Below are positions 124 to 35,421 of a DNA stretch of 37,209 bases, in pieces (within the stretch, counting starts at the first letter, position 1; each line of letters opens with the position of its first letter). The stretch is from positions 1-37,209 of the IMG/VR virus record IMGVR_UViG_3300009499_000004; one strand, 5' to 3'. Position numbers and translations under genes: made by a program. The notes under the pieces were generated by a model. It searched no databases, was not told the origin of the DNA, and worked only from the letters and a program-made list of their open reading frames with translations. This DNA is from a virus.

Positions 124-256
124 CGCGTCCCGACTCGCTCGAATGAGCGGCTCGCAGTTCACGCCGATGAGGATAGCCCCCTCGCCGCCGCCGAGTCCCC
201 AGGAGCTTATGACCCTGGTGCAGCAGGCGGCGAGCCAGTTCGGCCCAGGAGGATAG
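2..256 (+). CDS. C-terminal part of Gln/Pro-rich virion protein (gene spans the contig ends)
   Basis: This frame continues the gene that starts at 36206 and runs off the right end. Joined across the circle it is 1137 nt, encoding 378 residues. The part here begins in the region rich in Gln and Ala (ELAAAIGGQVAGIQAQTW...) and ends in a Pro-rich tail finishing QFGPGG. The stop codon TAG at 254-256 lies inside the SD (AGGAGG) of the next gene. The last codons, SD and following ATG (236-262) recur almost exactly at 762-788, on the far side of the next gene. By position between portal and scaffold it is probably an internal or ejection protein, but no known family was recognised. Confidence 0.85.
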   Translation, partial: ELAAAIGGQVAGIQAQTWAQGLPHELPRGTQFAPGMGPAGPASRLARMSGSQFTPMRIAPSPPPSPQELMTLVQQAASQFGPGG

Positions 257-262
257 ACGATG
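236..262 (+). repeat. Gene-junction direct repeat, pair 1 (second copy 762-788)
   Basis: A 27-base segment matches 762-788 at 24 of 27 positions, including the invariant CAGGAGGATAGACGATG. It comprises the last codons (QFGPGG or QFGAGG, then stop), the SD and the start codon of the following gene. The pair brackets the deoxyribosyltransferase-like gene and a 24-codon remnant ORF. Confidence 0.9.
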
Positions 263-715
263 CTTTATGTGGAGAGTCCAACACACTTTCATTCTCTTTC
301 TCCAAAGGAAAAGGTTCTGTTTCTTGCAGGTGGAATAACGAACTGTCCTGATTGGCAGCAGGAGATGAGGCAGAAGTTGGCGGACACTGAGTGGGTTCTG
401 CTCAATCCAAGACGAGAGCACTTTCCAATCCACGATCCAGGCGCGGCGTTGGCGCAGATCACCTGGGAGTATGAACATCTACGCATGGCAACTGCGATTC
501 TGTTCTGGTTCCCATGTGAGACGATCTGCCCGATCGTCCTGTACGAACTCGGCGCATGGTCTATGACGGCCAAACCCTTGTTTGTAGGCGTCCATCCCGA
601 CTATAGCCGGCGGCGCGATGTTGAGATACAGACTGGACTTGTAAGGCCCGACGTTGCCCTCGTCTACTCATTGGAGGAGCTGGCGCGGGCTGTCAGGGAG
701 GTGAGCGATGGCTAA
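260..715 (+). CDS. Nucleoside 2-deoxyribosyltransferase-like protein
   Basis: 151 residues starting at ATG 260, six bases after a strong AGGAGG. The N-terminal strand and loop (VLFLAGGITNCPDWQQEM, about residues 15-32) and the PIVLYELGAW segment near residue 95, with its candidate catalytic Glu, fit the nucleoside 2-deoxyribosyltransferase-like superfamily. Such enzymes exchange or remove the base of (deoxy)nucleosides or nucleotides. The substrate here is unknown. Salvage, host nucleotide degradation or counter-defence are possible, and none is shown by the sequence. The gene sits alone among virion genes and is bracketed by the 236-262/762-788 direct repeat, so it looks like an acquired single-gene cassette. 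Its base composition is slightly more AT-rich than its neighbours. Its stop overlaps the ATG at 708. Confidence 0.7.
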   Translation: MLYVESPTHFHSLSPKEKVLFLAGGITNCPDWQQEMRQKLADTEWVLLNPRREHFPIHDPGAALAQITWEYEHLRMATAILFWFPCETICPIVLYELGAWSMTAKPLFVGVHPDYSRRRDVEIQTGLVRPDVALVYSLEELARAVREVSDG

Positions 716-782
716 CGGCACCCCTTACGGCGGCGAAGCCTGGATAGAGCAGGCGATGGGCCAGTTTGGGGCAGGAGGATAG
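708..782 (+). pseudogene. 24-codon chimeric remnant ORF
   Basis: ATG 708, preceded by GGGAGGTGAGCG, opens a 24-codon frame, MANGTPYGGEAWIEQA then MGQFGAGG. The start resembles the start of the 450-residue protein at 786 (MANGT, then PYGGQGW about 20 residues further on). The end resembles the C-terminus of the protein ending at 256 (QFGPGG). It therefore looks like a fused scrap of both neighbours left when the gene at 260-715 was inserted. It could still be translated, and could couple translation into the gene at 786, whose SD overlaps its end. Confidence 0.55.
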
Positions 783-785
783 ACG

Positions 786-2138
786 ATGGCGAATGGTACA
801 GATTGGCAAACGGGCGGGGCTTACGGCTCAAGTGGGCCTGAGATTCTAGGTGGCGGTGTGCCCTACGGCGGACAGGGTTGGCAGGCGGGGCAACTGGAGG
901 CGCTGATACAGGCGGTCTTGCAGCAGCTTCAGTACGCGCAGACGTTCGGCTATGGCTACCCTGGCATGGCTGCGCCCACGGCCCCGACGCGCAACGATGC
1001 CCTCATGGCTATCTGGCAGAACCGTCCAGACATCCAGGCTTTCTACCAGCAGAACTGGGGAGACCCAGCTACGGCGAAGGGTAGTCTGAGGAACTGGCGG
1101 CCGCAGGATGCGATCGAGAACTGGCTGGGGATGACTGGGGAGCTGACTGCTGAGCAGAAGGCAGATCCGATGGCCTTCGCTATCGAGCAAGGGTGGCTTG
1201 TGGACTATTCGGCAATGGAACGGGAGCCCACCCTGGCCCGCGAGGAGGCTGAGGCACGCTGGCAAGAGGCGGACAGGCAGTATCTTCGCTCGATCGGCCT
1301 TGACGAACAGCAGCAGGAAAACTACCTGGAGGAGGTGGCCTATCGGGAGAGGCGTGATGTCATAGATGATCAGCGAGCGTTACAGGAATGGGAGAGGGTC
1401 AATAAGCTCGACGCCGAAGCGGTGAGGCAATACAACCTGAATCGGCAAGATGAGCTGGCCCGACGCGCGACGGAAGATGAGCAGTGGGACAGGGAGTTTG
1501 CAAGGCTAGCCGGCTTGGACGAGGCAGCCATACGGCAATTCGAGCAGATCCATGCGCTGAACGTGCGTGCCCAAGAGCAACTGGAGACATACCAGACTGG
1601 CCAACTGGGTTTGGCTCAGCGGGAGCTAGAGCAACTTGCGGCATGGCAGACTGGCCAACTGGGTTTGGGTCAGCAGGAACTCCAGCAACTGATGAGTTAC
1701 CAGACTGGCCAACTGGGCCTGGGTCAGCAGCAGCTCGGCCTCGGCTATCTTGAGCTCCTGGGCCAGCAGAGAGGGCCGCAGGACTGGCCCTTCTACTGGC
1801 AGACACAGCGAAGGGCGGAGGCGACGGCTCTGCCCGCCTTTGCCCAGGCTCTTGCGGCGGGGACTCGACTCCCCCCGTGGCAGGCACCAGCACCGGGCGT
1901 GCCACTGGCGGGCCAGGGTGCTCCAGCGATCGCTCCGGCAGCAGGGGGCGTGCCATCCTTCGCCACTCCGCTTCCGCAGCAGATCACGCCGCAGCAGTGG
2001 TTCAATATGTATCCGTCGGAGCAGGCTGGCCTCCAGGGCATGGTCGAGTACGGCGGAGGGTACATGGCCGACTATCTTCAACAGATGCAGAGGGCTTGGC
2101 CGACGGGTCAGGCCCAGGGGGTGAGCTACTTTGGGTAA
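786..2138 (+). CDS. Gln-rich putative internal virion protein with three 18-residue repeats
   Basis: 450 residues, start fixed by AGGAGG at 773-778. The N-terminus is Gly-rich. Residues about 60-260 are charged and helical, very likely coiled-coil (many E/R/Q heptads). Then come three tandem copies of an 18-residue unit, (Y/W)QTGQLGLxQxxL, and a Pro/Ala-rich tail. The tail contains ALPAFA, a motif shared with the proteins encoded at 36206-256 and 4236-9968. Composition and order resemble the 378-residue neighbour (both Gln-rich, LPAFA-bearing), suggesting paralogues or partners. Between portal and scaffold, such proteins are often internal or ejection proteins; that role is inferred. The C-terminal codons (VSYFG) are duplicated at 2446-2467. 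Confidence 0.75.
   Translation: MANGTDWQTGGAYGSSGPEILGGGVPYGGQGWQAGQLEALIQAVLQQLQYAQTFGYGYPGMAAPTAPTRNDALMAIWQNRPDIQAFYQQNWGDPATAKGSLRNWRPQDAIENWLGMTGELTAEQKADPMAFAIEQGWLVDYSAMEREPTLAREEAEARWQEADRQYLRSIGLDEQQQENYLEEVAYRERRDVIDDQRALQEWERVNKLDAEAVRQYNLNRQDELARRATEDEQWDREFARLAGLDEAAIRQFEQIHALNVRAQEQLETYQTGQLGLAQRELEQLAAWQTGQLGLGQQELQQLMSYQTGQLGLGQQQLGLGYLELLGQQRGPQDWPFYWQTQRRAEATALPAFAQALAAGTRLPPWQAPAPGVPLAGQGAPAIAPAAGGVPSFATPLPQQITPQQWFNMYPSEQAGLQGMVEYGGGYMADYLQQMQRAWPTGQAQGVSYFG
1593..1754 (+). repeat. Three tandem 54-bp repeats in the coding sequence
   Basis: The string CAGACTGGCCAACTGGG begins at 1593, 1647 and 1701, a period of exactly 54 bp (18 codons). The repeats encode a Gln/Leu/Gly-rich 18-residue unit. 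Near-identity at the DNA level indicates recent duplication or ongoing homogenisation. Confidence 0.9.
2117..2134 (+). repeat. Gene-junction direct repeat, pair 2 (second copy 2446-2463)
   Basis: GGGGGTGAGCTACTTTGG occurs here and, perfectly, at 2446-2463. The first copy encodes the VSYFG end of the 450-residue protein. The second copy still reads VSYFG-stop (2450-2467) but is not attached to a gene, and it contains the TTG start (2460) of the next gene. The pair brackets the ORF at 2145-2453. Confidence 0.92.
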
Positions 2139-2144
2139 CTCGGC

Positions 2145-2453
2145 GTGAAGCTCTCTGAGGCTAGTTTTGAGGTGTGGGGTCTCGTCTGGGCTTGGGCTAA
2201 GCATCAAGGCGTTCGGGTCCTTGGTGATCCTGAGCTGCATATCGTGCCGCCCCGAACAATGCGATGGCGGGTTCCAGTCGTTCGGCAAGAAGTGTGCATG
2301 ACTCCGATAGAGGAAGTGTATGCGGGCGTGCCACCGTTCCTGGAGACGGAGGATATTGAGATCCAATCTTGCACAGTACATAACACCAGGGTAGGTATAG
2401 GCTACGGACCTAGAACTAGCACATTGGTCATCTGGCAGGAGATTCGGGGGTGA
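2145..2453 (+). CDS. Hypothetical protein, 102 residues
   Basis: Starts at GTG 2145 shortly after the stop of the 450-residue gene; no strong SD is visible. The product is a soluble mixed alpha/beta protein with several Trp and two or three Cys, and no family was recognised. It is flanked by a perfect 18-bp direct repeat (2117-2134 and 2446-2463) that duplicates the 3' end of the upstream gene, so it looks like an inserted cassette. The frame is open over its full length and ends inside the second repeat copy. Confidence 0.6.
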   Translation: MKLSEASFEVWGLVWAWAKHQGVRVLGDPELHIVPPRTMRWRVPVVRQEVCMTPIEEVYAGVPPFLETEDIEIQSCTVHNTRVGIGYGPRTSTLVIWQEIRG

Positions 2454-2459
2454 GCTACT

Positions 2460-2891
2460 TTGGCTGAGCCAGAATACGTGGACACACCAGAGGAGACCCT
2501 GGAGCTTCCAGGGCAGACAGACGAGCACGAGCCAGCGTTCGGGGTTACGGCTATCTCGCGCCACAATGAGACCGTCGTATTCGACATAACTATGCCATCC
2601 GAGCAGGGAGAGATGGTGCTGGATAGGGGCTGGCTCCTGGGGCAACTTGAGGAGCGCCAGGATCAGGAGCAGGTGGCGATCACAGGGGAGGTGCCGGAGC
2701 GAAGGCTGGTGGTGGGCATGTGGGTGGATGGCCTGCTCGAGGTGCTGTGCCGCCAGTTCCCTGAGCGATATGTCTCCTGGCTGAAGCCAATGGCGACGAC
2801 TGAAGCTCCGAGTCTGCCGGCAGCTGACCCCACCATGGCACGCAAAGCGTACAAGAGGGTGTCGCTTGAGATACCGGAGCCAGCGGACTGA
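2460..2891 (+). CDS. Hypothetical acidic protein, 143 residues
   Basis: Start taken at TTG 2460, inside the repeat, since GGGGG lies 10 bases upstream and no better start gives a conserved-looking N-terminus. The product is acidic at the N-terminus (Glu/Asp/Pro/Thr), has a central region with strand-like segments (ETVVFDITMPSEQGEM), and an SLEIPEPAD tail. No domain was recognised. Before the upstream cassette was inserted, its start would have overlapped the stop of the 450-residue gene, implying an ancestral virion-operon position. Confidence 0.6.
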   Translation: MAEPEYVDTPEETLELPGQTDEHEPAFGVTAISRHNETVVFDITMPSEQGEMVLDRGWLLGQLEERQDQEQVAITGEVPERRLVVGMWVDGLLEVLCRQFPERYVSWLKPMATTEAPSLPAADPTMARKAYKRVSLEIPEPAD

Positions 2892-2902
2892 GCAAGGAGG
2901 AG

Positions 2903-3109
2903 ATGCGGATGAAGAAGGAACTGGACCGGTCGGTCCGCCTGCATCTGCGGACGGCCTCGGCAGCGACTACGGCGAGCGCCCGGAAGGTCGCGGCGAGCCT
3001 GGGGTATATTTGCGCCAGGGGGCAATTCACGGGCCTGGGCAATCTCAGCGCCCTGGTGAACGCGATCGGCAGTGGCGAGGTGATCGTGACGCGAGCAAAG
3101 CCAGAATGA
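2903..3109 (+). CDS. Small basic protein, 68 residues
   Basis: ATG 2903 follows a good AAGGAGG; a second ATG at 2909 is possible. The N-terminal half is Lys/Arg-rich and probably helical. The C-terminal half reads LGYICARGQFTGLGNLSALV and may form a small helical DNA-binding or adaptor fold. That is a guess, since no family was recognised. Its stop overlaps the glycosyltransferase start (ATGA at 3106-3109), so the two genes are translationally coupled. Confidence 0.6.
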   Translation: MRMKKELDRSVRLHLRTASAATTASARKVAASLGYICARGQFTGLGNLSALVNAIGSGEVIVTRAKPE

Positions 3110-4239
3110 TCCCCACGCTCTCGGTCGTGATGATCGTCAAAGACGAAGAGGACTCCCTAGCCCGCTGTCTCAAGAGCGTCGAGGGCGTGGGGGATGAGCT
3201 TGTCATCGTCGATACGGGATCGAGCGATGGCACGGTGGAGATAGCGCGGCATTTCACCCGTAAGCTCTACTTTCACGAGTGGGAGGACGACTTCTCCAAG
3301 GCCCGGAACCAGGCGCTGTCATACTGCACCTGTAGCTGGTGCCTACAGATAGATGCCGACGAGGAGCTTGTCAGAGAGGACATCCCGGTCTTGCGGGAGA
3401 CGCTGGAGCAGTTGCATCCGATAAGCAAGGTCCACGCGGTGCTCATGCCCATTCTGAGCTATCTGCCGTCGGGACTGATCGCCAAACACTACTTCCACCG
3501 CCTCTATCGTCGAAAGCGCGTACACTATGAGGGGTATGTGCACAACCAAGTGGAGTTTGATGGCCGGAACGCGATGGCCGAGATACGGATTCTGCACCAT
3601 GGCTACGCCCTCTCGCCAGAGGAGATGCGGAGGAAGCAGGAGGTGCGTCGGCGGCTGATGGAGAAGGAGATAGAACGAACCGACCCAGAGAGTGCCTGGA
3701 ACGCCTTTGCCTGGATGAACCTGATACGGCTCTACAGAAACTGGCTGGACTGGGAGAAGGTCATAGAGCTTGCGCCGAAGGTCTTGGAGCATCCAGCAGC
3801 CCAGGAGGTTCACCGGCAGACCGTTGCTGCGGACACGGTGATGGCTTGCACCGCCCTGCACCGGTTTGAGCTTGGCATAAGCGTGGGCCTCAAGGCACTG
3901 GAAGAGACGCCCGATTGCTTCGACGTGCTTCATCATCTCGGCTGGCTCTACCTTGACGCTGGGCGAGTAGGGGAGGCGAAGCTAACATTTGAGAAGTGGT
4001 TATACTACAAGATCAGGGAGCGCGTCAACGGACCGAGGCCCAGCTATCTGATAATCGACACGCACCAGTGCGAGCCTCACGTTTGGGAGGGTCTAGCGCG
4101 GTGTTACGACATGATGGGGAACCGAGAACTGGCATCGAACGCGATGGGCTGGGCCGTGATGGCTAGAAGGAAGCAGGCGAGCGATGTGGTGGCGATGCAA
4201 ACAGAAAGTGGCCTTCGGCCAAATGAGGTAGCCGTATGA
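3106..4239 (+). CDS. GT2-family glycosyltransferase with TPR-like C-terminal domain
   Basis: 377 residues from ATG 3106 (ATGA overlap); an upstream in-frame extension to 2866 lies inside other genes and was not used. Residues 1-110 carry GT-A hallmarks: LSVVMIVKDEED, VDTGSSDGT and a DAD metal-binding motif at about residues 83-85 (QIDADEEL). The second half contains helical pairs typical of TPRs. This pairing is common in bacterial GT2 enzymes that transfer a sugar from a nucleotide-sugar donor. Sitting between putative internal virion proteins, it might glycosylate virion proteins or alter host surface glycans; the substrate is unknown. The last codons lie in the 24-bp hairpin repeat (4198-4221), giving QTESGLRP near the C-terminus. 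Confidence 0.85.
   Translation: MIPTLSVVMIVKDEEDSLARCLKSVEGVGDELVIVDTGSSDGTVEIARHFTRKLYFHEWEDDFSKARNQALSYCTCSWCLQIDADEELVREDIPVLRETLEQLHPISKVHAVLMPILSYLPSGLIAKHYFHRLYRRKRVHYEGYVHNQVEFDGRNAMAEIRILHHGYALSPEEMRRKQEVRRRLMEKEIERTDPESAWNAFAWMNLIRLYRNWLDWEKVIELAPKVLEHPAAQEVHRQTVAADTVMACTALHRFELGISVGLKALEETPDCFDVLHHLGWLYLDAGRVGEAKLTFEKWLYYKIRERVNGPRPSYLIIDTHQCEPHVWEGLARCYDMMGNRELASNAMGWAVMARRKQASDVVAMQTESGLRPNEVAV
4198..4221 (+). repeat. 24-bp hairpin element, copy 1
   Basis: Core GAAAGTGGCCTTCGGCCA preceded by CAAANN. TGGCC and GGCCA form a perfect 5-bp stem around TTC. Other copies are at 10105-10128, 29744-29767 and, reversed, 23418-23441. This copy ends 18 bases before the glycosyltransferase stop. 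Confidence 0.93.
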
Positions 4240-7200
4240 GTTGGTGGCAGTGGGCAACCGAGGAAGAAAAGAGCAGATTCGATGCTCACGAGCTTCTGCG
4301 CGAGTATCGCCCGCCGGAGGCTCCAAAACCGCCTGCCGTGCCCACACCTACGCCGAGGCCAGTGCCTACACCGGCGCCAGCAGCACCACGGCTACCAGCG
4401 TTTGCGCCGCAAGTGGAGCCAGAACTTGCGGCACAGGGCCAGCGGATGACCTACCCAGGGGCTGTCAGGGCGGCGGTGGGCCAGATACCATCCTTCGTGA
4501 GATCGCTTCGTGACCTGGTGGTGACTGGCCGCTTGCCTGAACAGGAGCCGACCTGGGCACAGCCTATCACCCGAACATGGGAGGATTTCAGGCAGCAGAT
4601 TCTACGGCCCGCCAGTATGCTCACGCAGGAGCGTATCGCGGCCCCTTTGCTGGGCGAGTTGATGCGCTGGAATGTGCCCTATCGGATGCTGGCCCCCGAG
4701 CGGGCTGGTCCTTCGCCTTGGGGTGAGATACCTGAACTGGCCAAGCGGGCCGTAGACGTCGGGGAGCCGTTGCCGGGCGTTGGAAGGCTTCCTGCCTTCG
4801 CCAAGCAGCGCTACGAGGAAGCCAGGGCTTACGAGCCGACCCTGCCAGCGGGCGTGAGGCTGGTCGGAAGGCAGCTTCTCGACCCGCTGGGCCTGGGTGG
4901 TGCTTGGGCGTCAACTATGCTAACAGGCCCGCTGGGTGCAATCTATAGGATCGTAGACATCGCTGACTACACCGCTTTTCTTCTCTCGGCGACCCCAGAC
5001 GAGCTAAAGGTAGCCGCAGCCTTGATAGGCGTGGGAATAACCGCCAGGAACCTGCCAAAGATCAGAGCCTTCGTAAAGAGGGTGGCTGGCGGGGCCACAC
5101 CAGCGATGCGGAGAGCCGCGCAGGAGGCGGCGCCGGCCGTGCAGAGGTTCATGGCTGAGGAAGCAGGGGCGGCGGAGATACTGGGGAGGCCGCCGGTTCC
5201 CAGTGCGGAGCGGTGGAACGAGATACAGGATCAACTCGTCCCTCTAAGGCGTCGGTTCGAAGAGCTAACGTATGGACCAATCCGCGCGCAGCGGAGAGAC
5301 AATATCTTTGAAAGAATGCGGAAGCAAATTGAGGCCCTTGAGGAGGAGGCAGCATTCCACAAGCCAGCAGTAGAAGAGCCAGCAGCGGCGGAGATACCCG
5401 GACGGCCACCTGTGCCCGAGGTGGAGCCAGAGGACTTCGTGCAGCGAGTGTCAAGAAGGGTGGACGAAGATAGTCTCAAGATGGGCAGGCGGCTACGGCT
5501 AAGTAAGCCTGAGAGGTTACTGACAGTCGTGGTAGATGGTGAACCTGCTTGGTCATACGAGGGGTTCTTTATCGAGGTGGGCGAAACGCCTGCTCGCTTC
5601 AAGGGTGCCCAGAGCGTGGATAGGGGGGCCGTCAGTTGGCTTGCTCTCTTTGAGGGGGAGGGATCGCCTGCCCTTCCGATGGGCACGGCTAGAGGGGACT
5701 ATCTCGCGGACAAGGTGAAGACAGGTGATGAGGTCGTCTTCATATCAGAGGCCGGGGACGCTATATCAGTGGCTACGAGATACTGGGGCTATTTCCAGAA
5801 GAAATACAAGGATGCTGAGTGGCGTATGTATGGCCCAGACAAGGGCGTGGAGGTGAGGTCTCGAGGACGTACTGTTGGCTTCATCATGCCGTTCGTGCGT
5901 CAGGGTCGGCTACCCTCAGAAGTGTTCACTCAATGGTCAGACCTGGTTACGCGCGAAACCCCGACCACAGAGATTGGCGGAAAGACGTTCAGGGCAGGCC
6001 AGCGAGTGCGCAGTGGCCCCCAGGAGGGCTTTATCGCAGAGACCGCCCATGGTTGGGTGATGCGAGCAGACACTCCGTTGGTTCCTGGTGCTCGGAGAGA
6101 CATCCCCCTGCGGGATATTGCCGATTATATCGAGCCGATTGGCCCCGACGTGGCTGCTCCGGTCCGGCCGGAAGCACCAGTCGCCGTGCCCGAAGCTGCG
6201 CCAGAGGCGATGAGGCCGATGGAGGTGCCGCCAGAAGAGGCCGCAAGGCTGGCCCGCGAGGCGGAGGAAGCGGCGGGGCAGAGAGCCCTTGGTGCCCCCG
6301 CGCCAGAAGCGAAAGAGTACTGGCAGATGACGCGCGAGGAATACGAGGGCCGTCGTCTATACAGTCCATCGTGGGATCCAGAGCACCGAGAGGTCATCGA
6401 AGAGGCACTGGCCGAAGCCAGGCCCGTTCCCGCCAAGGTCCTGGCCGAGTATCCCGACTTGGCCAGAGCTGCCCCTGCGCCAGAAGCGCCGCCTGTGCGT
6501 GCGGTAGCGCCAGCAGGACTTCCCGACCCCTGGACATTGCCGCGTGACCTGTATGTGCGGGCAACTGGTGCGACTGACCGCGCGGATGTTCTGCAAGCCC
6601 AGATGCAGTGGCGCACCGGCATTGAAGAGGCTTACAGACGGGGCGAGATTGACTTGGGCACGCGAGGTCTCAGCAAGGCTGCGGATATGGTCATCCGCGA
6701 TCTGAGGGCGAGGCCCCCCGCGCCTGTGCGTGCCCCAGTGACGCGGCCAGTTACGCCCGGCGTTGCACCTTTGGCTGAGCCAGCGGTTCCACCACCCGCT
6801 GTCCCAGCGTTTCCTCCTGTGACCGCTCAACCCGTACCCGGAGCTGGGGGCATTCCAGGCCAACCCTTGGCTCCGGGTGCGGGAGCGGCGGTCGTTGCGC
6901 CAGCGGGTAGGCCCGTTCAGCCGCCGTTGGCTGCGGCTGGCGTGCAGATAGCACCGGGTGGGCCACCTGCGGGTGCAGTGCCACCTGCTGCGCCTCCAGG
7001 GGCCGTAGTGCCTCCGCCGGGCAGTCCGCAACTACCTGGCTTCGTGACTCGGCCTCCAACCGCGCCAGGGCGCCTCGCCTCTATTCTTGATAGTGGCGAG
7101 ATTCTATCGTCTCAGAGGAGGCCTGACCTGGCGCGCAGGATGATGACCTTTGCCGAGACACATCACGTAACGCCGATGGTGAAACTACTGCGATCTATCG

Positions 7201-10104: not shown

Positions 10105-10128
10105 CAAAGTGAAAGTGGCCTTCGGCCA
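10105..10128 (+). repeat. 24-bp hairpin element, copy 2
   Basis: Same core as copy 1, immediately downstream of the 43-residue gene and upstream of the structured intergenic block. It is read in the same codon phase (Q-S-ESGLRP, then stop) by a 12-codon GTG frame at 10093-10131. Confidence 0.93.
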
Positions 10129-22101: not shown

Positions 22102-22138
22102 AAGCCACTGCCCCGCCAGCGGGCGAGAAGGAGGCGTG

Positions 22139-22871: not shown

Positions 22872-23034
22872 CGTGGGCCAGAGCATCCTCTGCGTCGGAG
22901 GCATCCTGGGCTTACAGGCTGGCCTGAACTGGATGGACCAAGCGTCCAACGCCGAGTTGACCTGGGCAGCGTTGGGCGTGGTTGTGTTCTGGGTCCTGGC
23001 TTTCTGGCTCACAAGGAGGAAACCGACGAGATGA
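22858..23034 (+). CDS. Small two-helix membrane protein, 58 residues
   Basis: ATG 22858 behind AGAAGGAGGTGGG. Two hydrophobic segments: VGQSILCVGGILGLQAGLNW, and LTWAALGVVVFWVLAFWL ending in a basic tail (TRRKPTR). Early-operon position makes a holin role unlikely. A host-takeover or superinfection membrane factor is possible. Overlaps both neighbours. Confidence 0.6.
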   Translation: MAKPSVGQSILCVGGILGLQAGLNWMDQASNAELTWAALGVVVFWVLAFWLTRRKPTR

Positions 23035-23662: not shown

Positions 23663-23663
23663 C

Positions 23664-24575
23664 ATGAGCGAGAATGTTCCGAATATCAGGACCACCCAAG
23701 ACCTCGCACTACTGACCGGGCAACAACTGGCCCTCATCAAAAACACCATTGCCAAGGGCGCAACCGACGAGGAATTGCATATGTTCCTGGAGGTTGCCCG
23801 AGCAACTGGTCTCAATCCCTTCGCCAAGGAGCTGTACTTCATCAAGTACAAGATGCGCAATGGCACGAGCAGCGTCGCTATGCCCGTGGGCATCGACGGC
23901 CTGCGGCGCAAGGCAGCAGAGTCAGGCGACTACGCGGGTCAGGTCGGCCCACACTTTTGCGGAGAGGACGGAGAGTGGAAGGATGTCTGGCTCTCCAAAG
24001 ACCCGCCAGCGGCCTGTAGGGTAGGAGTCCTCCGCCACGGCAATCCTGAGCCTACTTGGGGCATCGTGAAAGCCAGCGAGTTCGCCAAAGACACCAACTT
24101 CTGGCGGGACATGCCTACCCATATGCTGGCTGTGACGGCCGAGCGACATGCTTTGCGGAAGGCGGCACCGAGGCTGGTGGAGAAGATACAAGCGGCCGGG
24201 GCTCAGGTCATGGACGCTGACTATCTCATCGCCAAGGGTGAACAGTTCGAGCGGCAGCGAGCTCTCCCGCAGCAGAGTCCGGCTGGTGACTTGCAGCAGG
24301 AGTTGTACGGTCAAGGCCCGACCGGGAGCGAGGGCGATAAGAAAGAAGAGCCGGTCGAGTGGACCAAGACGGATTTGGCCGAGCTCAAGGCAGCCGTCGA
24401 GCAGAGAGAGCTTTCGTCCAAGGAATGGCGCGAGCTGCTTGGCCTGACGGCGACCGCCGAGGTAAAGGATGTGGTGGCACTCGGCAGCGTTGCGACGGTC
24501 ATCAAGTTGCTGGAGGCCGCCTTTGCAAAGGCGGTAGCGAACGAGCCAGTGGGGCAGGCCAAGCTCGGGTTCTGA
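23664..24575 (+). CDS. bet: Bet/RecT-family single-strand annealing protein
   Basis: 303 residues, SD AGGAGG at 23650. The first 190 residues carry the Bet/RecT core: TGQQLALIKNTIAKGATDEE, LEVARATGLNPFAKELYFIK, then the conserved hydrophobic runs around WGIVKASEFAKD and MPTHMLAVTAERHALRKAAP. The C-terminal 100 residues are a charged linker and small helical module. It anneals complementary single strands during phage recombination. The usual exonuclease partner is absent next to it; SbcCD and a VRR-NUC protein are nearby candidates to make the 3' tails. Confidence 0.88.
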   Translation: MSENVPNIRTTQDLALLTGQQLALIKNTIAKGATDEELHMFLEVARATGLNPFAKELYFIKYKMRNGTSSVAMPVGIDGLRRKAAESGDYAGQVGPHFCGEDGEWKDVWLSKDPPAACRVGVLRHGNPEPTWGIVKASEFAKDTNFWRDMPTHMLAVTAERHALRKAAPRLVEKIQAAGAQVMDADYLIAKGEQFERQRALPQQSPAGDLQQELYGQGPTGSEGDKKEEPVEWTKTDLAELKAAVEQRELSSKEWRELLGLTATAEVKDVVALGSVATVIKLLEAAFAKAVANEPVGQAKLGF

Positions 24576-24676: not shown

Positions 24677-24895
24677 GTGAGCAAAGAAGTAGGCCACCTG
24701 AACAACGCACTAGGACATCTGATGCAGGCCACTGAGACCCTTGCCACCAAGCCAATAGTCAACGAGAAGGCGGTTAGAGATTGTGTTGCCGCTGAGATGG
24801 GCGTCAGACACCTTCTAGCCTTCCTAAGGGGGAGTGATGAGATTCATGCACCTGGCGGACGCCCACCTGGGATACCGCCAGTACAACAGCGATGA
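24677..24895 (+). CDS. Hypothetical small protein, 72 residues
   Basis: GTG 24677 follows AGAGGAGGAG. The N-terminal 50 residues (VGHLNNALGHLMQATETLAT, ...VRDCVAAEMGVRHLLAFLRG) are two amphipathic helices. The C-terminal 20 are Pro/Gly-rich and overlap the sbcD start by 59 bases in another frame. Looks like a small helical-hairpin phage protein. Function unknown. The overlap may serve coupling. Confidence 0.55.
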   Translation: MSKEVGHLNNALGHLMQATETLATKPIVNEKAVRDCVAAEMGVRHLLAFLRGSDEIHAPGGRPPGIPPVQQR

Positions 24896-26087
24896 CAGGG
24901 CGCGGGACTTTGCCCGTGCCTTCCGGCAGATGTGTCAGAAGGCGATAACTGAGCGATGCCAACTGGTGCTCATCGCCGGCGACCTGTTCCACGGCTCGGC
25001 CATGGACCCCCGGACGTTTTTGCAAGCTGTGGGGGCACTTGAACCGCTGCGAGAAAAGGGCATTGATGTTATCGCCATTGCTGGCAACCACGATCGCGCT
25101 CGCACGAGCCGGGGACTGAACTGGCTTCACGCTCTCCAGAAGCTGGGCTTGGTGACACTGCTGGAGATCGGCATCGAGAAGGGAGAGCTGAGTCTGGAAA
25201 AAGCGGTCTGGGAGAGACACGAGATTCGCGTGATTGGCATTCCCTTCGTCGGCACGGGGCTGCCGCAGATTCTGCCCCAGATCGCCGACTATCTGGCGCT
25301 TGAGGCGATGGGTCCCACCAAGTTCACCATCCTGATGCTCCACGCTGGGCTGGAGGGCGAGATACCAGCTTTCCGAGCATCGCTGACCATGGAGAACCTG
25401 GCTCCCTTGGGCCCTCACGTAGACTATCTGGCTCTCGGCCACATACACAAGCCTTACGCTCGCGGCGACTGGATATTCAACCCAGGGAGCCTGGAGACAG
25501 TCAGCATCGATGAGGCCCAGTGGGACGATCGAGGCGGTATCCTGGTGGAGATCGAGGACGGTCTGATAACGGGGCCGCCCACGATTGAGTGGGCTATCCC
25601 CGATCGGCGACCGTTTGTGCAGATAAGTCTAGGGGTGGATACGTTTCGTGACCCAGAAGCGCTATATCGGTTCTATGTGCTCACTAGCAAAGACCATGCC
25701 ATGCTCCGCGCAGAGGAAATTGGGCAAAATCCAGTAGTTGAGCTGCGGCTGCAAGGCTCTCTCCAGTTTGATCGCTCTAGTCTTGAACTGTCCCGCATTG
25801 AGCAAATCATCGAGGACACGTACCATCCGCTTCTGGTCCGCATCCGCGATCACACCGAAAGCGACGCCTCGGAGATCGCAGTCACCGAAGACGCCACCCG
25901 GGCCGAGATTGAGCGCCATGTGGTGCGGGAGCTGGTGGGACGCGATGCGGGGCGCAAAGAGCACGCAGAGTTTTGGACATGGATGATCTTAGACCTCAAG
26001 GACATGGCACTGGCCAGGAATGCCCCGGAGAAAATCATCGCGGCCGCCCGATCAGGCCAGAGAAGCCTTACCGAGGGCCTATGCTGA
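24837..26087 (+). CDS. sbcD: SbcD/Mre11-type nuclease
   Basis: 416 residues from ATG 24837. Metallophosphoesterase motifs are all present: D8-x-H10 (HLADAHLGY), LIAGDLFHG, AIAGNHDRAR, LMLHAGLEG and ALGHIHKP. A cap and C-terminal helical region follow. With SbcC/Rad50 it forms an ATP-dependent exo/endonuclease that trims ends and opens hairpins. In phages (T4 gp46/47) it supplies recombination and end-resection during replication. Gene order sbcD-sbcC with a 19-base gap is standard. Confidence 0.93.
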   Translation: MRFMHLADAHLGYRQYNSDDRARDFARAFRQMCQKAITERCQLVLIAGDLFHGSAMDPRTFLQAVGALEPLREKGIDVIAIAGNHDRARTSRGLNWLHALQKLGLVTLLEIGIEKGELSLEKAVWERHEIRVIGIPFVGTGLPQILPQIADYLALEAMGPTKFTILMLHAGLEGEIPAFRASLTMENLAPLGPHVDYLALGHIHKPYARGDWIFNPGSLETVSIDEAQWDDRGGILVEIEDGLITGPPTIEWAIPDRRPFVQISLGVDTFRDPEALYRFYVLTSKDHAMLRAEEIGQNPVVELRLQGSLQFDRSSLELSRIEQIIEDTYHPLLVRIRDHTESDASEIAVTEDATRAEIERHVVRELVGRDAGRKEHAEFWTWMILDLKDMALARNAPEKIIAAARSGQRSLTEGLC

Positions 26088-26106: not shown

Positions 26107-28554
26107 ATGCCGATCAAGTCGATCGAGCTTGAAAACTGGAAGAGCTATGGTTTCGCCAAAATCCTCTTTGATTCCGGGGTCACGGCCATCCTCGGGGAGA
26201 ATGGGAGTGGCAAGTCGAGCATCCTGGAGGCGGTGGGGTTCGCGCTCTTTGACCATCGCAACGGCAAGCTGGAGGCCCTACTCCGGGAAGGGGCCAAGTC
26301 GGGTAGAGTGGCCATATCCCTCACATCATCCCTGGATGGCGCCGAGTATCTGGTAGAACGGGAGTTCACCGCCAAGGCCACGACCAGCTATCGAGTCCAC
26401 CAACCGGAACGGGCGAATCAGATAGTGGCCCAGGGTGCAGCGGACGTGCAGCGGTGGCTCCGAACGCATATGGGAGTACCGCCCGACGCGCAGTTGGGCA
26501 CGGTGTTCGAGAACACCATCGGAGTTCCGCAGGGCACTTTCACCGCTCCCTTCCTGCTGGCGCCGGCGCAGCGCAAGGCCGTGTTCGACCCGCTGCTTCG
26601 TGTGGAGGAGTATCGGAAAGCCTCAGACAACTTGCGGCCTACGGTGCGCCAGCTCAAAGACGAGAAGGCTACTCTGGACACGGAGATCGCGCGCATGGAG
26701 GGGGTGTTGACAGGGCTGCCAGGACTGCGCGAGGAGCACAAGACCCTGGGGTATGACCTGGCGCGTCTTGGAACAGTTCGGGCCTTGCGCACCCAGCAGC
26801 TAGAGAAAGCCGAGGCCAAACTGAGAGTGCTGGGCCAGGCCGCCAAGCGTGTTGAGGAGGCTGACCGGCAGACCGACACAGCCAAGGTTCGGCTTGACGC
26901 TCACGAGGCGCTTTGCGAGACCGCGTTGCATGGCACTGAGGAAGCCGAGAAAGCGACCCAGGTGGTCGCGGAGAACTTGGTCGGCTACGAGGCTTACATC
27001 GAGGCCGAGGTCAAGGTGCAGGAACTCGAGACCAGCCAACAGGAACAAGCGCGGCTCCTGGCCAAGCGGGCCCAGTTGGAGGTTCAGATAGCCCGACTGG
27101 AGGGCGCAAGGCAAGAAGAGGAACGAAGCAAGCAACAGATCGCGCAAGGCAAGATGAGGGTCCAGGAGACCGAGGCCGGCGTGGAGAAGGCTGGGCAGCT
27201 TGAGAAGCAGATACAGGCGCTTGACACAGAGGCTGATCAGATACGTGAGTTGCTCACGCAAGCCAATGCGACGAAAGCAGGTGTTCGTGCCGAGTGGCAA
27301 GGTCTTCAGCGCCAGTCGGACTTCCTTGCGGATGCCGTCCTTGCTGCTTGTCCCACCTGCGGATCCGAGTTGACCACCGAGCACCGCGAGGAGATTAGAT
27401 CGCGAAACGAGATCGAGATAGAGGGTTTGCGGTCTGAGGAAGCCAGACACAACCGACATACCGCAGACCTCCAGTATACCATCGCCCAACTCGGGCCCCG
27501 GCGGGTCGGTGCACGGGACAGGCTGCGAAATCTCCCCGCGCAGGGCGACCTGGCTCGCACCCGACAAGACCTCGCCAAGCGCGAAGGGGAGCTCGAGGCA
27601 ATAAAGGGCCGGCTGGAGATGCTAGCCCAGGCCCCCAGCGCCTTGAAGCAAGTAGATGTCGCACTGGAGCCCTTCGCCGGACTTGAGAGAGAACTATCCC
27701 TCTGGCGAGCGCGACACGGGCTACACAAGCGTGGACACACACTCTATCTGGGCAATGTCACCCTCGCCCAGCAGCAACCCGAGCGCCAAGCCAGACTGGA
27801 GGAGGTACGTGCCAAACGCAATGAACTCGTTTGCGAATGGCAGCGACTGGCCGAGGAACATTGGCGAGCCAAGGGTGATTACGACGGCGAGGAGCACGCC
27901 AACGTCCAGGCCGAGACGACTAGGCTCCAGCTAGAACTCGCCGGCGTCCAGGCCCAGCTCAAGGAGAAGGCGTATCGCCTCACCGTCGTCAAAGAGAGCA
28001 TCGAGTCCCTTGAGGGCCTAGAGAAGGAGCTGGCCGTCAAGAGTGCGCTAGCCACAGAGACCAGTGACCTCCTTGCGACGATGGAGACCGTGCGGGACAT
28101 CCTCCGCGAGGCAGGCCCTTACGTGACCCGACGCCTGGTCCGGCAAATCAGTCAGGGGGCCTCCACGACGTTCGGAGACCTGATGGGCGACTCGGGGCGA
28201 CGGCTCCAGTGGTCAGAGGACTATGAAGTGTCGCTAGACGTGCGTGGTCACAGTCGGACCTTCGCACAACTCTCGGGCGGTGAGCAGATGGTCGCAGCCT
28301 TGGCGGTGCGGCTGGCCCTTCTACGCGAGACGTCGGCGATCGACGTGGCATTCTTCGACGAGCCGACGGCGCACCTAGACCCTGAGCGTCGGCAGAGTCT
28401 AGCCGACAGGCTGAGCCAGGTCAAGGGGTTCAGCCAGCTCTTCGTCATCTCGCACGATTCTACCTTTGAGTCTGCCGCCGAGAACACCATCCGCATCGTG
28501 AAGGACGAGAGAGGCAGCCAGCAAGAGGAGGAGCGAGATGCCAGCACCGAATGA
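26107..28554 (+). CDS. sbcC: SbcC/Rad50-type ATPase
   Basis: 815 residues from ATG 26107, SD GGGAGG; a longer frame to 26020 overlaps sbcD and is not needed. Walker A GENGSGKSS near residue 35; long coiled coil; zinc hook CPTC at residues 415-418; second coil; ABC signature LSGGEQMVAALAVRLAL (about residue 722); Walker B FFDEPTAHLD. It is shorter than cellular SbcC (about 1050 residues), so the coiled coil is reduced, as in phage homologues. Its last codons (EEERDASTE) are duplicated at the end of the next gene. Confidence 0.95.
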   Translation: MPIKSIELENWKSYGFAKILFDSGVTAILGENGSGKSSILEAVGFALFDHRNGKLEALLREGAKSGRVAISLTSSLDGAEYLVEREFTAKATTSYRVHQPERANQIVAQGAADVQRWLRTHMGVPPDAQLGTVFENTIGVPQGTFTAPFLLAPAQRKAVFDPLLRVEEYRKASDNLRPTVRQLKDEKATLDTEIARMEGVLTGLPGLREEHKTLGYDLARLGTVRALRTQQLEKAEAKLRVLGQAAKRVEEADRQTDTAKVRLDAHEALCETALHGTEEAEKATQVVAENLVGYEAYIEAEVKVQELETSQQEQARLLAKRAQLEVQIARLEGARQEEERSKQQIAQGKMRVQETEAGVEKAGQLEKQIQALDTEADQIRELLTQANATKAGVRAEWQGLQRQSDFLADAVLAACPTCGSELTTEHREEIRSRNEIEIEGLRSEEARHNRHTADLQYTIAQLGPRRVGARDRLRNLPAQGDLARTRQDLAKREGELEAIKGRLEMLAQAPSALKQVDVALEPFAGLERELSLWRARHGLHKRGHTLYLGNVTLAQQQPERQARLEEVRAKRNELVCEWQRLAEEHWRAKGDYDGEEHANVQAETTRLQLELAGVQAQLKEKAYRLTVVKESIESLEGLEKELAVKSALATETSDLLATMETVRDILREAGPYVTRRLVRQISQGASTTFGDLMGDSGRRLQWSEDYEVSLDVRGHSRTFAQLSGGEQMVAALAVRLALLRETSAIDVAFFDEPTAHLDPERRQSLADRLSQVKGFSQLFVISHDSTFESAAENTIRIVKDERGSQQEEERDASTE
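28525..28551 (+). repeat. Gene-junction direct repeat, pair 5 (second copy 28925-28954)
   Basis: GAGGAGGAG, a few variable bases, then ATGCCAGCACCGAA. It recurs at 28925-28954. Each copy encodes the EEE-x-x-ASTE end of one gene plus the SD and MPAP start of the next. The pair brackets the 140-residue ORF. Confidence 0.9.
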
Positions 28555-28960
28555 CCGGAACTCCAGGATAGCCCTGGCGAAGGGCTGGACATTCCATGAG
28601 TGGTATGAGGAGGCGGGCCGACCAGAAACGCGCTCAGAGACACCGCTTCACACTCACTGGCGTAATCCCTCCTATGAGATTGCAGAACCCCGCGACTACG
28701 TGGGCACGCTGAAGGGCGTGGCGGGGCTGATGCGGGAGCTGCAAGCAACACGTAAACCGATGAGCCAGTGGGCTTGGTATTGGAATGACAAGAAGCAACG
28801 CTTCGTTATGCGACACGCAGCGTGGTTGCGTAGATTCCCATTTCGCAGACAGATTCATGCGATTTTCTATTCGCCCAAAGACCGCCCCGGCAACTGCGTC
28901 GGCCAGGCTTGGTTGAGTATGTTTGAGGAGGAGGCGGCCAATGCCAGCACCGAAGCGTAG
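28538..28960 (+). CDS. Hypothetical protein, 140 residues
   Basis: ATG 28538 inside repeat pair 5, overlapping sbcC by 17 bases. The N-terminal LAKGWTFHEWYEEAG and the central region AGLMRELQATRKPM loosely resemble small phage alpha/beta sandwich proteins, but the match is too weak to name. The C-terminal half is basic and aromatic (WAWYWNDKKQRFVMRHAAWL). Its start (MPAP) and end (ASTEA) copy those of its neighbours, indicating cassette insertion. Confidence 0.6.
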   Translation: MPAPNDRNSRIALAKGWTFHEWYEEAGRPETRSETPLHTHWRNPSYEIAEPRDYVGTLKGVAGLMRELQATRKPMSQWAWYWNDKKQRFVMRHAAWLRRFPFRRQIHAIFYSPKDRPGNCVGQAWLSMFEEEAANASTEA

Positions 28961-29771
28961 CAAGATTGGATACTGCGACTACTCAGGCGGCGACCTGAAT
29001 GTGGTACTCGGTTGCACGCCGGTATCGGCCGGTTGCGCCAACTGCTACGCCCGCCGCATCTATGAGCGCTTCGGCAAGGACTTCACCCAAGTGACCGTCT
29101 ATCCCGAGAAGCTGGAACGGCTTCTCAAGTGGCAGCCCAAGCCGCCGTTCAAGCGTGGGCCAGGTAGTAGGCCGCTGGCTTTCGTCTGTGATATGAGCGA
29201 CCTCTTCCACGCGGACGTGCCCAGGACCTTCATTCTGATAGCCATTGAGATCATGGAGAAGAGGGGGGACATTGATTGGCTTCTCCTGACCAAAAGACCA
29301 AAGCGGATGTCGGAGGTTCTCTGGCGACTGGGCTGGTGGAGTCATGGCCATACCCCAGCAAATATCTGGCTCGGCGTCACTGTCGAGAACGAGGACAACC
29401 TCTGGCGCATCGACGAACTGCTGAAGACGCCCGCCACCGTGAGGTGGGTGAGTCTGGAGCCGATGCTGGGGCCGATTGAACTCGGGCTCATTGGAACTAT
29501 CCCCAAAGACATCTCGCCCTCCTACCGCCTAGTTGGAGACTGGATTGATTGGATTGTCATCGGTGCCGAGTCTGGCCTCAACGGCCGCCCGTTCGAGAAG
29601 GAGTGGGCGTGGGATGTGCTTGACCAGTGCCGAGAGGCGAATGTGGCGTGTTTCCTCAAGCAGGACTCCGGGGCACGACCAGGCGTGCCGTTGCTGGACA
29701 GGGAAGGCAGAGAGGTGAAGGAATGGCCGGAACCAGCGCCGCGCAAAGTGAAAGTGGCCTTCGGCCATTGA
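28941..29771 (+). CDS. Gp37/Gp68 (DUF5131) family protein
   Basis: 276 residues from ATG 28941 (GAGGAGGCGG upstream). The N-terminal GCTPVSAGCANCYARR supplies the C-x6-C-x2-C cluster of the family. Downstream are VCDMSDLFHADVP, DWLLLTKRPKRM, NIWLGVTVEN, RWVSLEPMLGPI and VIGAESGLNGRPFEKEWA, in the usual order. The fold resembles a radical-SAM-type barrel; the reaction is not established. The family's usual three-Cys-motif partner (TcmP) is not encoded here. The last codons (KVKVAFGH) cross a copy of the hairpin repeat. Confidence 0.9.
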   Translation: MPAPKRSKIGYCDYSGGDLNVVLGCTPVSAGCANCYARRIYERFGKDFTQVTVYPEKLERLLKWQPKPPFKRGPGSRPLAFVCDMSDLFHADVPRTFILIAIEIMEKRGDIDWLLLTKRPKRMSEVLWRLGWWSHGHTPANIWLGVTVENEDNLWRIDELLKTPATVRWVSLEPMLGPIELGLIGTIPKDISPSYRLVGDWIDWIVIGAESGLNGRPFEKEWAWDVLDQCREANVACFLKQDSGARPGVPLLDREGREVKEWPEPAPRKVKVAFGH

Positions 29772-33244: not shown

Positions 33245-35163
33245 TGGCTGACGACAAGGGCAAGCTGGTCTACGAAGACCTGGAGGCACTGTACCGGCGC
33301 CAGGCCACGCTGTGGGCCGGCCGCAACGACCACATCGACCGCATGGAGCAACTGCGCTTCATGGAGGTGCAGCCGAAGGTCTCGCAAGACCTGGAACCCG
33401 AGGACGTTCGGACCGCACAGCCCTACATGGTCGTCGCCCGCATGGTGCCCATGCTGACGGCCAACAGGCCCCAGATACACATTCCCCCCGCAGCGGACAC
33501 CATCCAGAAGCAGAAGCAGAGCGGCCTCGTAGAGAACTGGAGCAACGCAGCGCTCAGGGTGCTGGCCGAGCAGACCGGGGAGGACGTGTTCGAGCGGTTC
33601 ACCGAGTCGCTGGTCGCCTATGGTCACGGCTGTATGCGTGTGCTCTACGCGCCCCAGCTCTGGGCGGGCATGCGTACGCGCGGAAAGAATGAGAAGGAAG
33701 AGGACTACAACAAGGCCATCGACGAGTGGAGCCAGGGCAAGCCTCTGCCCATATCCTGGACCTGGCTTGACGCTCGCAATGTGTTTCCCATGTGGCGCGA
33801 CGACAAGCTGGTGGCCATCCTGGAGGTGGACAAGCGCGAGCCGTTCACCCTCAAGGCCCAGCACTACAACCTGGCGGACAAGAAACCCGAGCTTTGGAAG
33901 ATGGGCAGGTACACCTCCCCGGAGGGAGGCGGGCTGGTCCAGTTCATGCAGCTCTGGACTGAGGATGCCCTGATCTACGCCGTCGAGACCAACATCGTCC
34001 ACTACGAAGCGCACCAGTACGGCAGGCCACCCTACGTCTACCGCTACGGCATCGCCACGGCCAGCCGCGATCGGAGCAAAGCTGGCCTGTCCGTGCTCTT
34101 CCCTCTGGAACACCTGAGCCTCTACTGTGACCGTCTCCTGAGTCAGTGGGCCACGGCTATTCGCATCTGGGCGTACCCCACGCTGGTAGCGCAACTGAGT
34201 GAAAACGAACAGGCCGCCGCCGGTGGCGAAGCACCCGATGCCAAACAGCTCACCAGGGACTTCAGGATAGCCCCTGGCCACGTCAACGTGCTGTATGGCG
34301 ACGAGAAACTTCAGCCGTTTGGCCCTATGGGTGTCGGCCCAGACCTGCCCAGGATGATCGAGCTGGTGATGAAGCTCCAAGAGCGGGCAGGGATAGCCGA
34401 CGTGCTGTACGGGCAAGAGGCATGGGGCCAGAGCGGATATGCCATCAGCCAGCTCATCGCAGCGGCGCGGACCGCCTTCAAGCCGATCAAGGAGCACGCC
34501 GAGAGCGCACTAGAGGCGGTGCTGAGGATCATCTGGGACATCGTGGAGTACCACTGCAAGCAGAAGGTGTTTGTGTACGGCAGCTCGGAGAAGAAGGGCG
34601 GCAGCAAGGGCTGGATCGGTATCGGGCCTGACGACTTGCAGGACTACCGCCAGGTGCAGGTGACGATCAACCCCATAATGCCCACCGACGAGTATGCGCG
34701 ATCAAGCAAGGCCCTGAACGAGAGGACGGCCAAGGTCAGGTCTCGCCGCAGCACGATGGAGCAGATAGGGATAGAGGATCCCGACGCCGAGGCTGACCGG
34801 ATCATCATCGAGGAGTGGCTGGAGCGGGACGACGTGAAGGCCTGGGCCGCCGAGCGCATCATCCGCAAGGCCGGCATCAAGCTGGAGGAGATACAGCAGC
34901 TCTCTCCGACGCAGTTCGTGCAGGCTCTGCCGACGCTACCTCCGGCGATGCAGCAGGCCCTCTTGATGGCCAGGGCTGCGGGGGGCAGGTTGGGACAACA
35001 GCCAGGCGCGGGAGTTGCCCCGGTGATGGGGGCGCCGGGCGTTCAGGCGATGCCACAGCCGCCGACACCGCAAGCGGCGAGTATGCTTGGCCCCCGGACG
35101 ATGCCGGCAGGGATAGCGACCGGGCAGGCTCCGGGAGTCAGAAGAGGAGCGATGGGAGCGTGA
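33244..35163 (+). CDS. Portal protein
   Basis: 639 residues from ATG 33244. Long helical/beta protein with RTAQPYMVVARMVPMLTANR near the start, ENWSNAALRVLAEQTGEDVF, SWTWLDARNVFPMW, and a central ERAGIADVLYGQEAWGQSG loop typical of podovirus-type portals. A C-terminal Gln/Pro/Gly-rich tail follows, ending RRGAMGA. The dodecamer forms the DNA entry and exit vertex. The RRGAMGA-stop end is duplicated at 35386-35409, behind the next gene. Confidence 0.9.
   Translation: MADDKGKLVYEDLEALYRRQATLWAGRNDHIDRMEQLRFMEVQPKVSQDLEPEDVRTAQPYMVVARMVPMLTANRPQIHIPPAADTIQKQKQSGLVENWSNAALRVLAEQTGEDVFERFTESLVAYGHGCMRVLYAPQLWAGMRTRGKNEKEEDYNKAIDEWSQGKPLPISWTWLDARNVFPMWRDDKLVAILEVDKREPFTLKAQHYNLADKKPELWKMGRYTSPEGGGLVQFMQLWTEDALIYAVETNIVHYEAHQYGRPPYVYRYGIATASRDRSKAGLSVLFPLEHLSLYCDRLLSQWATAIRIWAYPTLVAQLSENEQAAAGGEAPDAKQLTRDFRIAPGHVNVLYGDEKLQPFGPMGVGPDLPRMIELVMKLQERAGIADVLYGQEAWGQSGYAISQLIAAARTAFKPIKEHAESALEAVLRIIWDIVEYHCKQKVFVYGSSEKKGGSKGWIGIGPDDLQDYRQVQVTINPIMPTDEYARSSKALNERTAKVRSRRSTMEQIGIEDPDAEADRIIIEEWLERDDVKAWAAERIIRKAGIKLEEIQQLSPTQFVQALPTLPPAMQQALLMARAAGGRLGQQPGAGVAPVMGAPGVQAMPQPPTPQAASMLGPRTMPAGIATGQAPGVRRGAMGA
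35140..35161 (+). repeat. Gene-junction direct repeat, pair 6 (second copy 35386-35407)
   Basis: GAGGAGCGATGGGAGCGT is identical in both; the 22-base version has one mismatch. The first copy encodes the RRGAMGA end of the portal. The second still reads RRGAMGA-stop (35386-35409) but is a detached remnant. The pair brackets the ORF at 35168-35386. Confidence 0.93.
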
Positions 35164-35167
35164 AAGA

Positions 35168-35386
35168 GTGACCAGGGAGGGGCAGCGAACCGTCATCAAG
35201 TGGCAGCTTGGGCCGATTCTCTATGGCCAGAACCCGATTCTGGTATTCCCGCCGGTAGGCGCATATCACCCTCCGAGCCGCTGGGAGCGATGGAAGGCCA
35301 AGCTAGGCTTTCGGTACTCGCGGCTGAGGTACAGGTTTGGCAGGTGGATAATGGGCCAGCGCAACTGGGCAGAGTATCAGGACTGA
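35168..35386 (+). CDS. Hypothetical basic protein, 72 residues
   Basis: GTG 35168, five bases after the portal stop. The product has a strand-like start (TVIKWQLGPILYGQNPILVF) and a Trp/Arg-rich C-terminal half (RWERWKAKLGFRYSRLRYRF), so it is strongly basic. No family recognised. Bracketed by repeat pair 6, it appears inserted between the portal and the gene at 35422. Confidence 0.6.
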   Translation: MTREGQRTVIKWQLGPILYGQNPILVFPPVGAYHPPSRWERWKAKLGFRYSRLRYRFGRWIMGQRNWAEYQD

Positions 35387-35421
35387 GACGAGGAGCGATG
35401 GGAGCGTAGGAGGGGGAGTGA

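Follow-up and report, generated by a model that had tools for sequence, protein, structure and literature searches.

Six single genes between doubled gene junctions in one viral genome, probable scars of out-of-register crossovers between related phages

How phages gain single genes between closely packed neighbours without breaking them is a long-standing question, and most boundaries in mosaic phage genomes are traceless. Cases with a trace have been described in mycobacteriophages. Gene 68 of Island3 ends in 18 residues that match the end of the upstream gene 67, and Brujita lacks the gene; the authors call the event the first described in mycobacteriophages and propose recombination at a sequence of about 50 bp (Pope et al. 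2011, PMC3029335). The same source describes LRRHood (Cluster C1), where a 1.35-kb segment at the end of a gene is flanked by direct repeats of 29 bp and relatives have one copy. The start-associated sequence (SAS) of Cluster K mycobacteriophages is one motif with 11-19 copies per genome, as described in PMC3203893. Here we analyzed six single genes bracketed by doubled gene junctions in the virus record IMGVR_UViG_3300009499_000004, and the whole analyzed stretch of 37,209 bases is called the window; since the first 123 bases are found again at the end, it was treated as a circle of 37,086. We consider it rather probable that the doubled junctions were left behind by out-of-register crossovers between related phages, one with and one without the bracketed gene (X).

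The initial annotation had reported six single genes with flanking direct repeats, and all six genes and repeat pairs are present and recur at gene junctions; one coordinate was corrected, as the right copy at locus 5 begins at 28928, 3 nucleotides (nt) away from the 28925 given before. The repeats stand at or just past the end of the upstream gene. The aligned copies (Table 1) are 41 nt with 85% identity and 17 nt exact at locus 1, 18 nt exact at locus 2 (2117-2134 and 2446-2463), two exact 13-nt blocks with a 3-nt insertion or deletion (indel) at locus 3, 19 nt exact at locus 4, 27 nt with 81% identity and 14 nt exact at locus 5, and 28 nt with 89% identity and 18 nt exact at locus 6 (35134-35161 and 35380-35407). 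As had been claimed, the repeat copies the last codons of the upstream gene at five of the six loci, that of locus 3 being intergenic, and the re-read ends are QFGAGG, VSYFG with its stop, QKEVGD, ASTE and RRGAMGA with its stop. The stop of the upstream gene overlaps the start of X or sits at most 6 bases away in loci 1, 2, 4, 5 and 6, and the start codon of the next gene is within both repeat copies at loci 1, 3, 4 and 5 but not at loci 2 and 6. Assembly error was rejected by argument, since six places with 13-19 exact bases and divergent flanks are unlike a misjoin.

For the adjacency statistics a junction was defined as the bases from 50 before to 21 from the gene start, and each junction was compared with all others in the same genome by an ungapped score (match +1, mismatch -2; cut-off at least 14); non-adjacent junctions served as a control which keeps the ribosome-binding and start signals. 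The gene list of the window (44 genes) was hand-picked, and gene A, which precedes locus 1, was entered from 35947 in the within-window test and from 36206 in the multi-locus test. Of the 44 pairs of adjacent junctions in the window, 6 reached the cut-off, as did 1 of the 902 pairs of non-adjacent ones (Fisher p=4.9e-8), and the expectation that long junction repeats exceed a control is borne out. The lone non-adjacent match is between the end of the glycosyltransferase gene and the end of the DUF5131 gene and is part of AAAGTGGCCTTCGGCCA, present three times. Among 99 other phage loci the count of adjacent pairs was 28 of 1484 against 6 of 39 in the window (15 near-identical loci dropped), and without the SAS-like loci L019 and L032 it was 20/1436 against 6/39 (p=3.6e-5). 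Echoes of one C-terminus in that of a neighbouring gene, among them QKEVGD, DPQLPS and EAKP, came up in this comparison. A wider locus set, with the window counted in and near-identical loci kept, gave 38 of 1954 neighbours at a score of at least 14, with 3 of 1123 for junctions seven genes apart and 6 of 1017 for those eight apart. Across loci the neighbour rate thus shows a weak general rise, from which the window stands out as an outlier. A direct-repeat scan over distances of 60 to 2000 bases found 15 segments scoring at least 13; seven of them link the starts of neighbouring genes, and every one of the six loci is represented among these; the remaining eight are not at gene starts on both sides. 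A synonymous-codon shuffle, run 60 times, gave a mean of 2.1 and a maximum of 3 where the real window has 6, but it is unsuitable as a null model, as it leaves about 19 real bases per start unchanged. The doubled junctions are strongly non-random.

The two copies at loci 1, 2 and 6 were compared as codons. The portal ends at locus 6 are GVRRGAMGA-TGA and GLRRGAMGA-TAG, with 5 substitutions and a stop kept through 2 changes; the ends of gene B at locus 2 are GVSYFG-TAA and GVSYFG-TGA; and those of gene A at locus 1 are QAASQFGPGG and QAMGQFGAGG, with TAG in both. Under the same number of random substitutions, the probability of retaining the stop and reaching at least the same similarity is 0.0021 for the portal, 0.043 for B and 0.084 for A, for stretches that were picked after inspection.

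Locus 1 also holds a composite scar. Between X1 and B lies a 75-base micro-open reading frame (micro-ORF), MANGTPYGGEAWI-EQAMGQFGAGG followed by a stop, whose first 13 codons differ from the B start of a relative, R2, at six positions, all third-position and synonymous, besides a 12-nt indel. The B gene of the window itself starts MANGTDWQTGGAYG; it shares MANGT with the scar, and VPYGGQGW some 20 codons on. The relic of the A end in the scar (A') shares GCAGGCGATGGG with the A gene of R2, where A of the window has GCAGGCGGCGAG. Because the piece of B start (B') is R2-type, with all its differences synonymous, and is distinct from B of the window, it is assigned to another lineage, and this piece at least must, by its codons, have been part of a functioning B gene there before it was joined. 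Taken together, the frame- and stop-keeping alleles and the R2-type B' start suggest that the copies at loci 1, 2 and 6 probably come from different parental genomes.

Two relatives are syntenic with the window: R1 (L002/G001, 41.6 kb) and R2 (L003/G002, 30.9 kb), with terminases 63% and 59% identical to that of the window. The portal gene is common to R1, R2 and the more distant L045, L046/L047 and L052, and genes A and B are also found in these, apart from L045, where they are not in the part covered. The gap between A and B in R1, R2, L046/L047 and L052 has at most some tens of non-coding bases and no gene, and for this reason X1 is, as gene order indicates, a derived insertion in the window. 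The earlier proposal was that genes are acquired at 3' ends while the end of the host gene is regenerated; its first part is supported by X1, and its second part is opposed by the second copy at loci 1, 2 and 6, which looks like the allele of another phage. Duplication of the junction during gene acquisition is probably wrong for these three testable loci. The portal end is clearly similar in R1, L045, L046/L047 and L052 and weakly so in R2; as it is recognisable in the former four, the copy behind X6 is read as a relic of the portal end and not as a part of X6. In R2 gene B directly adjoins the next large gene, where the window holds X2, X3 and the glycosyltransferase gene, although the R2 terminase is only about 60% identical. 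A 49% homologue of this glycosyltransferase (2977-4239 in the window) stands at another junction in R2 (22682-23962, R2 orientation), between homologues of genes 12009 and 12483. Behind the portal gene of L046 there are, at 6699-9793, tandem paralogues of a repeat-rich protein (72% over about 300 residues); as the repeat found in L046/L047 (score 32) belongs to two such tandem paralogues, 72% identical, it was not counted as a cassette.

The relatives came from scans of viral_contigs. The terminase scan gave R1, R2 and L004, and the scan with a tail-gene alignment gave L044 and again R1 and R2; the terminase alignment scan kept the best 80 of 176 relatives. The RecT scan gave 33 loci with little else in common with the window. 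Scans of viral_contigs with the single proteins B, portal, capsid and DUF5131 gave no relative, and genome_contigs, scanned once with the terminase and once with the tail-gene alignment, likewise yielded none. Megablast of window positions 1-25000 against phages and tblastn of X5 in phages gave no match, and no match to the Rad50-like protein was found in R1 and R2, which are possibly fragments.

In the out-of-register crossover that we favour, the left parent would carry A-X (at locus 1 A-X1-B', with 13 codons of B') and the right parent A'-B. A crossover from just past X, or from 13 codons into B', to just ahead of the A' end would give A-X-(A' end)-B, a product in which the A end is present as two alleles. 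Products in which B retains its start signal, sited in or just after the A end, would be favoured by selection; survivors with doubled ends would look alike because in tight junctions the B start signal presumably needs the accompanying A' end. Longer duplications would be unstable, leaving repeats of roughly 15-40 nt. A plausible agent would be the phage's own RecT annealing protein together with the Mre11/Rad50-type pair; for phage recombinases of the Rad52-like type, activity on sequences that are short and diverged is reported (PMC3945230). We infer the crossover, the selection and the role of RecT, and likewise the origin of loci 3-5 by the same route as loci 1, 2 and 6. A wider idea, which we hold to be improbable, is that gene junctions in this phage group are preferred exchange points where RecT and Mre11/Rad50 would pair short gene ends out of register and so repeatedly load single genes, with removal possible through the same repeats. 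If true, it would be a general-purpose trade of cassettes without integrase or transposase, after structural and replication genes.

Several points weigh against such crossovers. No parent or close relative was found in the phage, viral_contigs and genome_contigs scans, and the crossover is not directly seen. Coding compatibility is weak when taken singly at locus 1 (P=0.084) and locus 2 (P=0.043). The other three loci neither support nor refute: the copies of locus 5 differ mostly non-synonymously, those of locus 3 are non-coding, and at locus 4 the sole difference outside the exact stretch is a 6-nt indel that keeps the frame. R2 has two cases of its own, with repeats alike at 32 of 32 and 30 of 31 nt, one bracketing a small gene without family match and the other ending a cytosine methyltransferase gene; plain duplication predicts the same, and a recent crossover or a recent duplication could each account for these near-exact repeats. 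Comparison of relatives in other phage groups yielded 24 distinct indels (some events seen in two loci), 19 of them with a called gene, and they are mostly unbracketed: an overlap of 9-27 nt in the empty genome was found for 6 of the 24, and a flanking repeat with a score of at least 14 in none of 13 inspected (best 9). Since indels elsewhere mostly lack such bracketing, the footprint is not the usual route of gene gain and loss. L095, L101 and L103 (minus strand, e.g. L095:458-795) likewise show presence or absence of single small genes at the start codon of the gene that follows; the shared sequence there is only about 4 bases, and a long repeat is lacking.

The same repeats could have arisen within one genome, each gene being inserted by short-homology joining or copy-choice and the junction being duplicated at that moment and diverging later. 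Such an insertion would account for the exact match between the two copies at locus 2 (18 nt) and at locus 4 (19 nt), for the exact and near-exact repeats in R2 and for the start codon included in both copies at four of the six loci, but it does not predict that the differences at loci 1, 2 and 6 preserve frame, stop and mostly the peptide, and the R2-type B start in the scar of locus 1 is no copy of B in the window; we regard it as possible, though rather unlikely. The scar, with a B start and then an A end, has the order expected of A-X-B'-A'-B, and this arrangement could also follow from a tandem duplication of the A-B segment in one lineage, after which later deletions of most of B' and A' would leave X between relic ends. 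The B' start is, however, much nearer to that of R2 than to B of the window, which is unpredicted unless the duplication is very old, and at the other five loci no B' piece was seen (by eye only), so that this course of events seems improbable to us.

Functional repeats kept for translation or regulation, like the SAS, would also stand near start codons, as the repeats of the window do, most of them with a stretch like a Shine-Dalgarno sequence (SD); other phages show such families. These are L019 (12263-14791) and L032 (4734-8419), both retrieved via the RecT gene, in which runs of neighbouring genes have one SAS-like start motif of about 20-40 bases. In the window every pair has its own sequence and the repeats contain codons and stops of the upstream genes; the non-adjacent control largely refutes this explanation, to which we give very little credence. 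The same control bears on chance similarity of strong ribosome-binding sites: an AGGAGG-like stretch with the start codon forms part of the match at four of the six loci, but the non-adjacent junctions of the same genome carry like signals and match in only one pair. Chance is thereby refuted for the whole set, for which it is extremely improbable, and could apply to a single weak locus such as locus 3. X with one junction copy might also be a mobile cassette, excised and re-inserted via the junction repeat by the RecT system of the phage, as the order of junction, X and junction, the presence of RecT in the genome and the glycosyltransferase homologue at another junction in R2 would allow; no such cassette was observed to recur at a second junction together with its repeat, and the copies differ inside the aligned repeat at four of the six loci, which makes such a cassette very unlikely. 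A transposon-type element places an identical element at several sites and has an element-end motif. A transposon or an ultra-small mobile element with target-site duplication was rejected as the six inserts are different genes, and of 48 direct-repeat families, in which only copies up to 1500 bases apart were considered, the 20 largest contained no repeated insert (no element-end motif search made). Integron-like gene cassettes, for comparison, are characterized by a tyrosine integrase and attC-type sites.

The window encodes a major head protein (PHROG 1.1e-52) and a terminase (PHROG 4.8e-08; the Pfam match is under the cut-off), and the portal protein was assigned by a weak PHROG match (5.3e-05) plus position. 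Gene A is an open frame running from 36206 to 256 across the circle. Genes A and B belong to no named family, B being without PHROG match, and may be termed structural from their location among virion genes. Gene B has a 54-base tandem repeat in three copies at 1565-1726. An HNH endonuclease gene at 21180-21677, possibly of homing type (AP2 match below the cut-off), stands directly ahead of loci 3 and 4. The 17-base sequence of the lone non-adjacent match occurs at 4205-4221, 10112-10128 and 29751-29767 and contains the inverted repeat TGGCC-TTC-GGCCA. Its first and third copies are at the ends of the glycosyltransferase and DUF5131 genes, respectively; the second falls in the gap behind the large gene 4236-9968. 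The second portal relic listed behind locus 6 is suggestive only, as unrelated matches of equal length occur in the same scan.

Table 1. Coordinates of the bracketed genes, their repeat copies and other features in the window
Feature	Position	Strand	Remarks
Locus 1, left copy	222-262	+	end of gene A, SD, stop, start of X1
X1, Nuc_deoxyri_tr2 gene	260-715	+	PF15891, Pfam 1.8e-15; stop TAA inside B' start ATGGCTAACGG
Composite scar, micro-ORF	708-782	+	MANGTPYGGEAWI-EQAMGQFGAGG and stop; apparent R2-type B start joined in frame to A end
Locus 1, right copy	748-788	+	A' end, SD, start of B
Gene B	786-2138	+	among virion genes; homologues adjoin A in R1, R2, L046, L047, L052
Locus 2, left copy	2117-2138	+	B end, GVSYFG and TAA
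X2	2145-2453	+	without family match; stop TGA inside right copy
Locus 2, right copy	2446-2467	+	putative relic of B end, GVSYFG and TGA
Locus 3, left copy	21877-21900	+	intergenic, SD, start
X at locus 3	21898-22101	+	without family match
Locus 3, right copy	22115-22141	+	3-nt indel against left copy
Locus 4, left copy	22397-22415	+	QKEVGD of gene 22139-22420, SD, start
X at locus 4	22413-22871	+	C-terminus repeating QKEVGD
Locus 4, right copy	22842-22860	+	start ATG of next gene at 22858
RecT-family annealing protein, candidate recombinase	23664-24575	+	PF03837, 7.3e-23
Calcineurin-like phosphoesterase, Mre11/SbcD-like	24834-26087	+	Metallophos 8.9e-15
SMC/AAA ATPase, Rad50/SbcC-like	26107-28554	+	SMC_N 4e-29; SbcC and zinc-hook models below cut-offs
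Locus 5, left copy	28525-28551	+	end DASTE of Rad50/SbcC-like gene, overlapping X start MPAPN
X at locus 5	28538-28960	+	N-terminus MPAPN similar to MPAPK of next gene; C-terminus NASTEA similar to DASTE of previous gene
Locus 5, right copy	28928-28954	+	overlaps start of DUF5131 gene 28941-29771
Locus 6, left copy	35134-35163	+	portal gene end, GVRRGAMGA and TGA
X6	35168-35386	+	without family match
Locus 6, right copy	35380-35409	+	putative relic of portal end, GLRRGAMGA and TAG
Possible second portal-end relic, R1 type	35411-35425	+	RGSE and stop; 13 nt (35411-35423) identical to R1 portal end

The traces in this window are dense (six in 37 kb) and readable, and three of the loci help to separate exchange between relatives from duplication on insertion. 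The same tests, namely same-frame relics, stop-to-stop changes, third-position differences and adjacent versus non-adjacent junctions, can be applied to any phage collection to gauge how often genes arrive by this route. A limited search of the open literature found no paper on many such scars in one genome. The initial annotation had held that no standard phage element leaves this footprint, which was too strong, since gene 68 of Island3 against Brujita shows the same one in the account given by PMC3029335. The footprint is already published as single mycobacteriophage cases, and what is new here is the density and the composite scar.

Island3 gene 68 (Cluster I) is like the loci of the window in having an extra gene after an upstream gene, with a C-terminus which echoes that of the upstream gene, and a gene-free relative with one junction. 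Its repeat is 58 nt with 5 mismatches, and Brujita has, by eye, one similar junction and no gene, with letters slightly unlike both Island3 copies. Island3 is a single case, whereas here six junctions are doubled in one genome and a composite scar is present. The LRRHood insertion, as its source describes it, is similarly a segment flanked by direct repeats at a gene end, but it holds four genes and not one. The short conserved boundary sequences of mosaic phages, cited in PMC3029335 (its refs 21-22), likewise involve recombination at gene boundaries through a short shared sequence; they are common to different genomes at the same boundary, whereas in the window both copies are in one genome. 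The SAS, as described in PMC3203893, resemble the repeats of the window in being short, at gene starts and with an SD, and differ from them in being one motif of many genes, where the window has local and distinct pairs.

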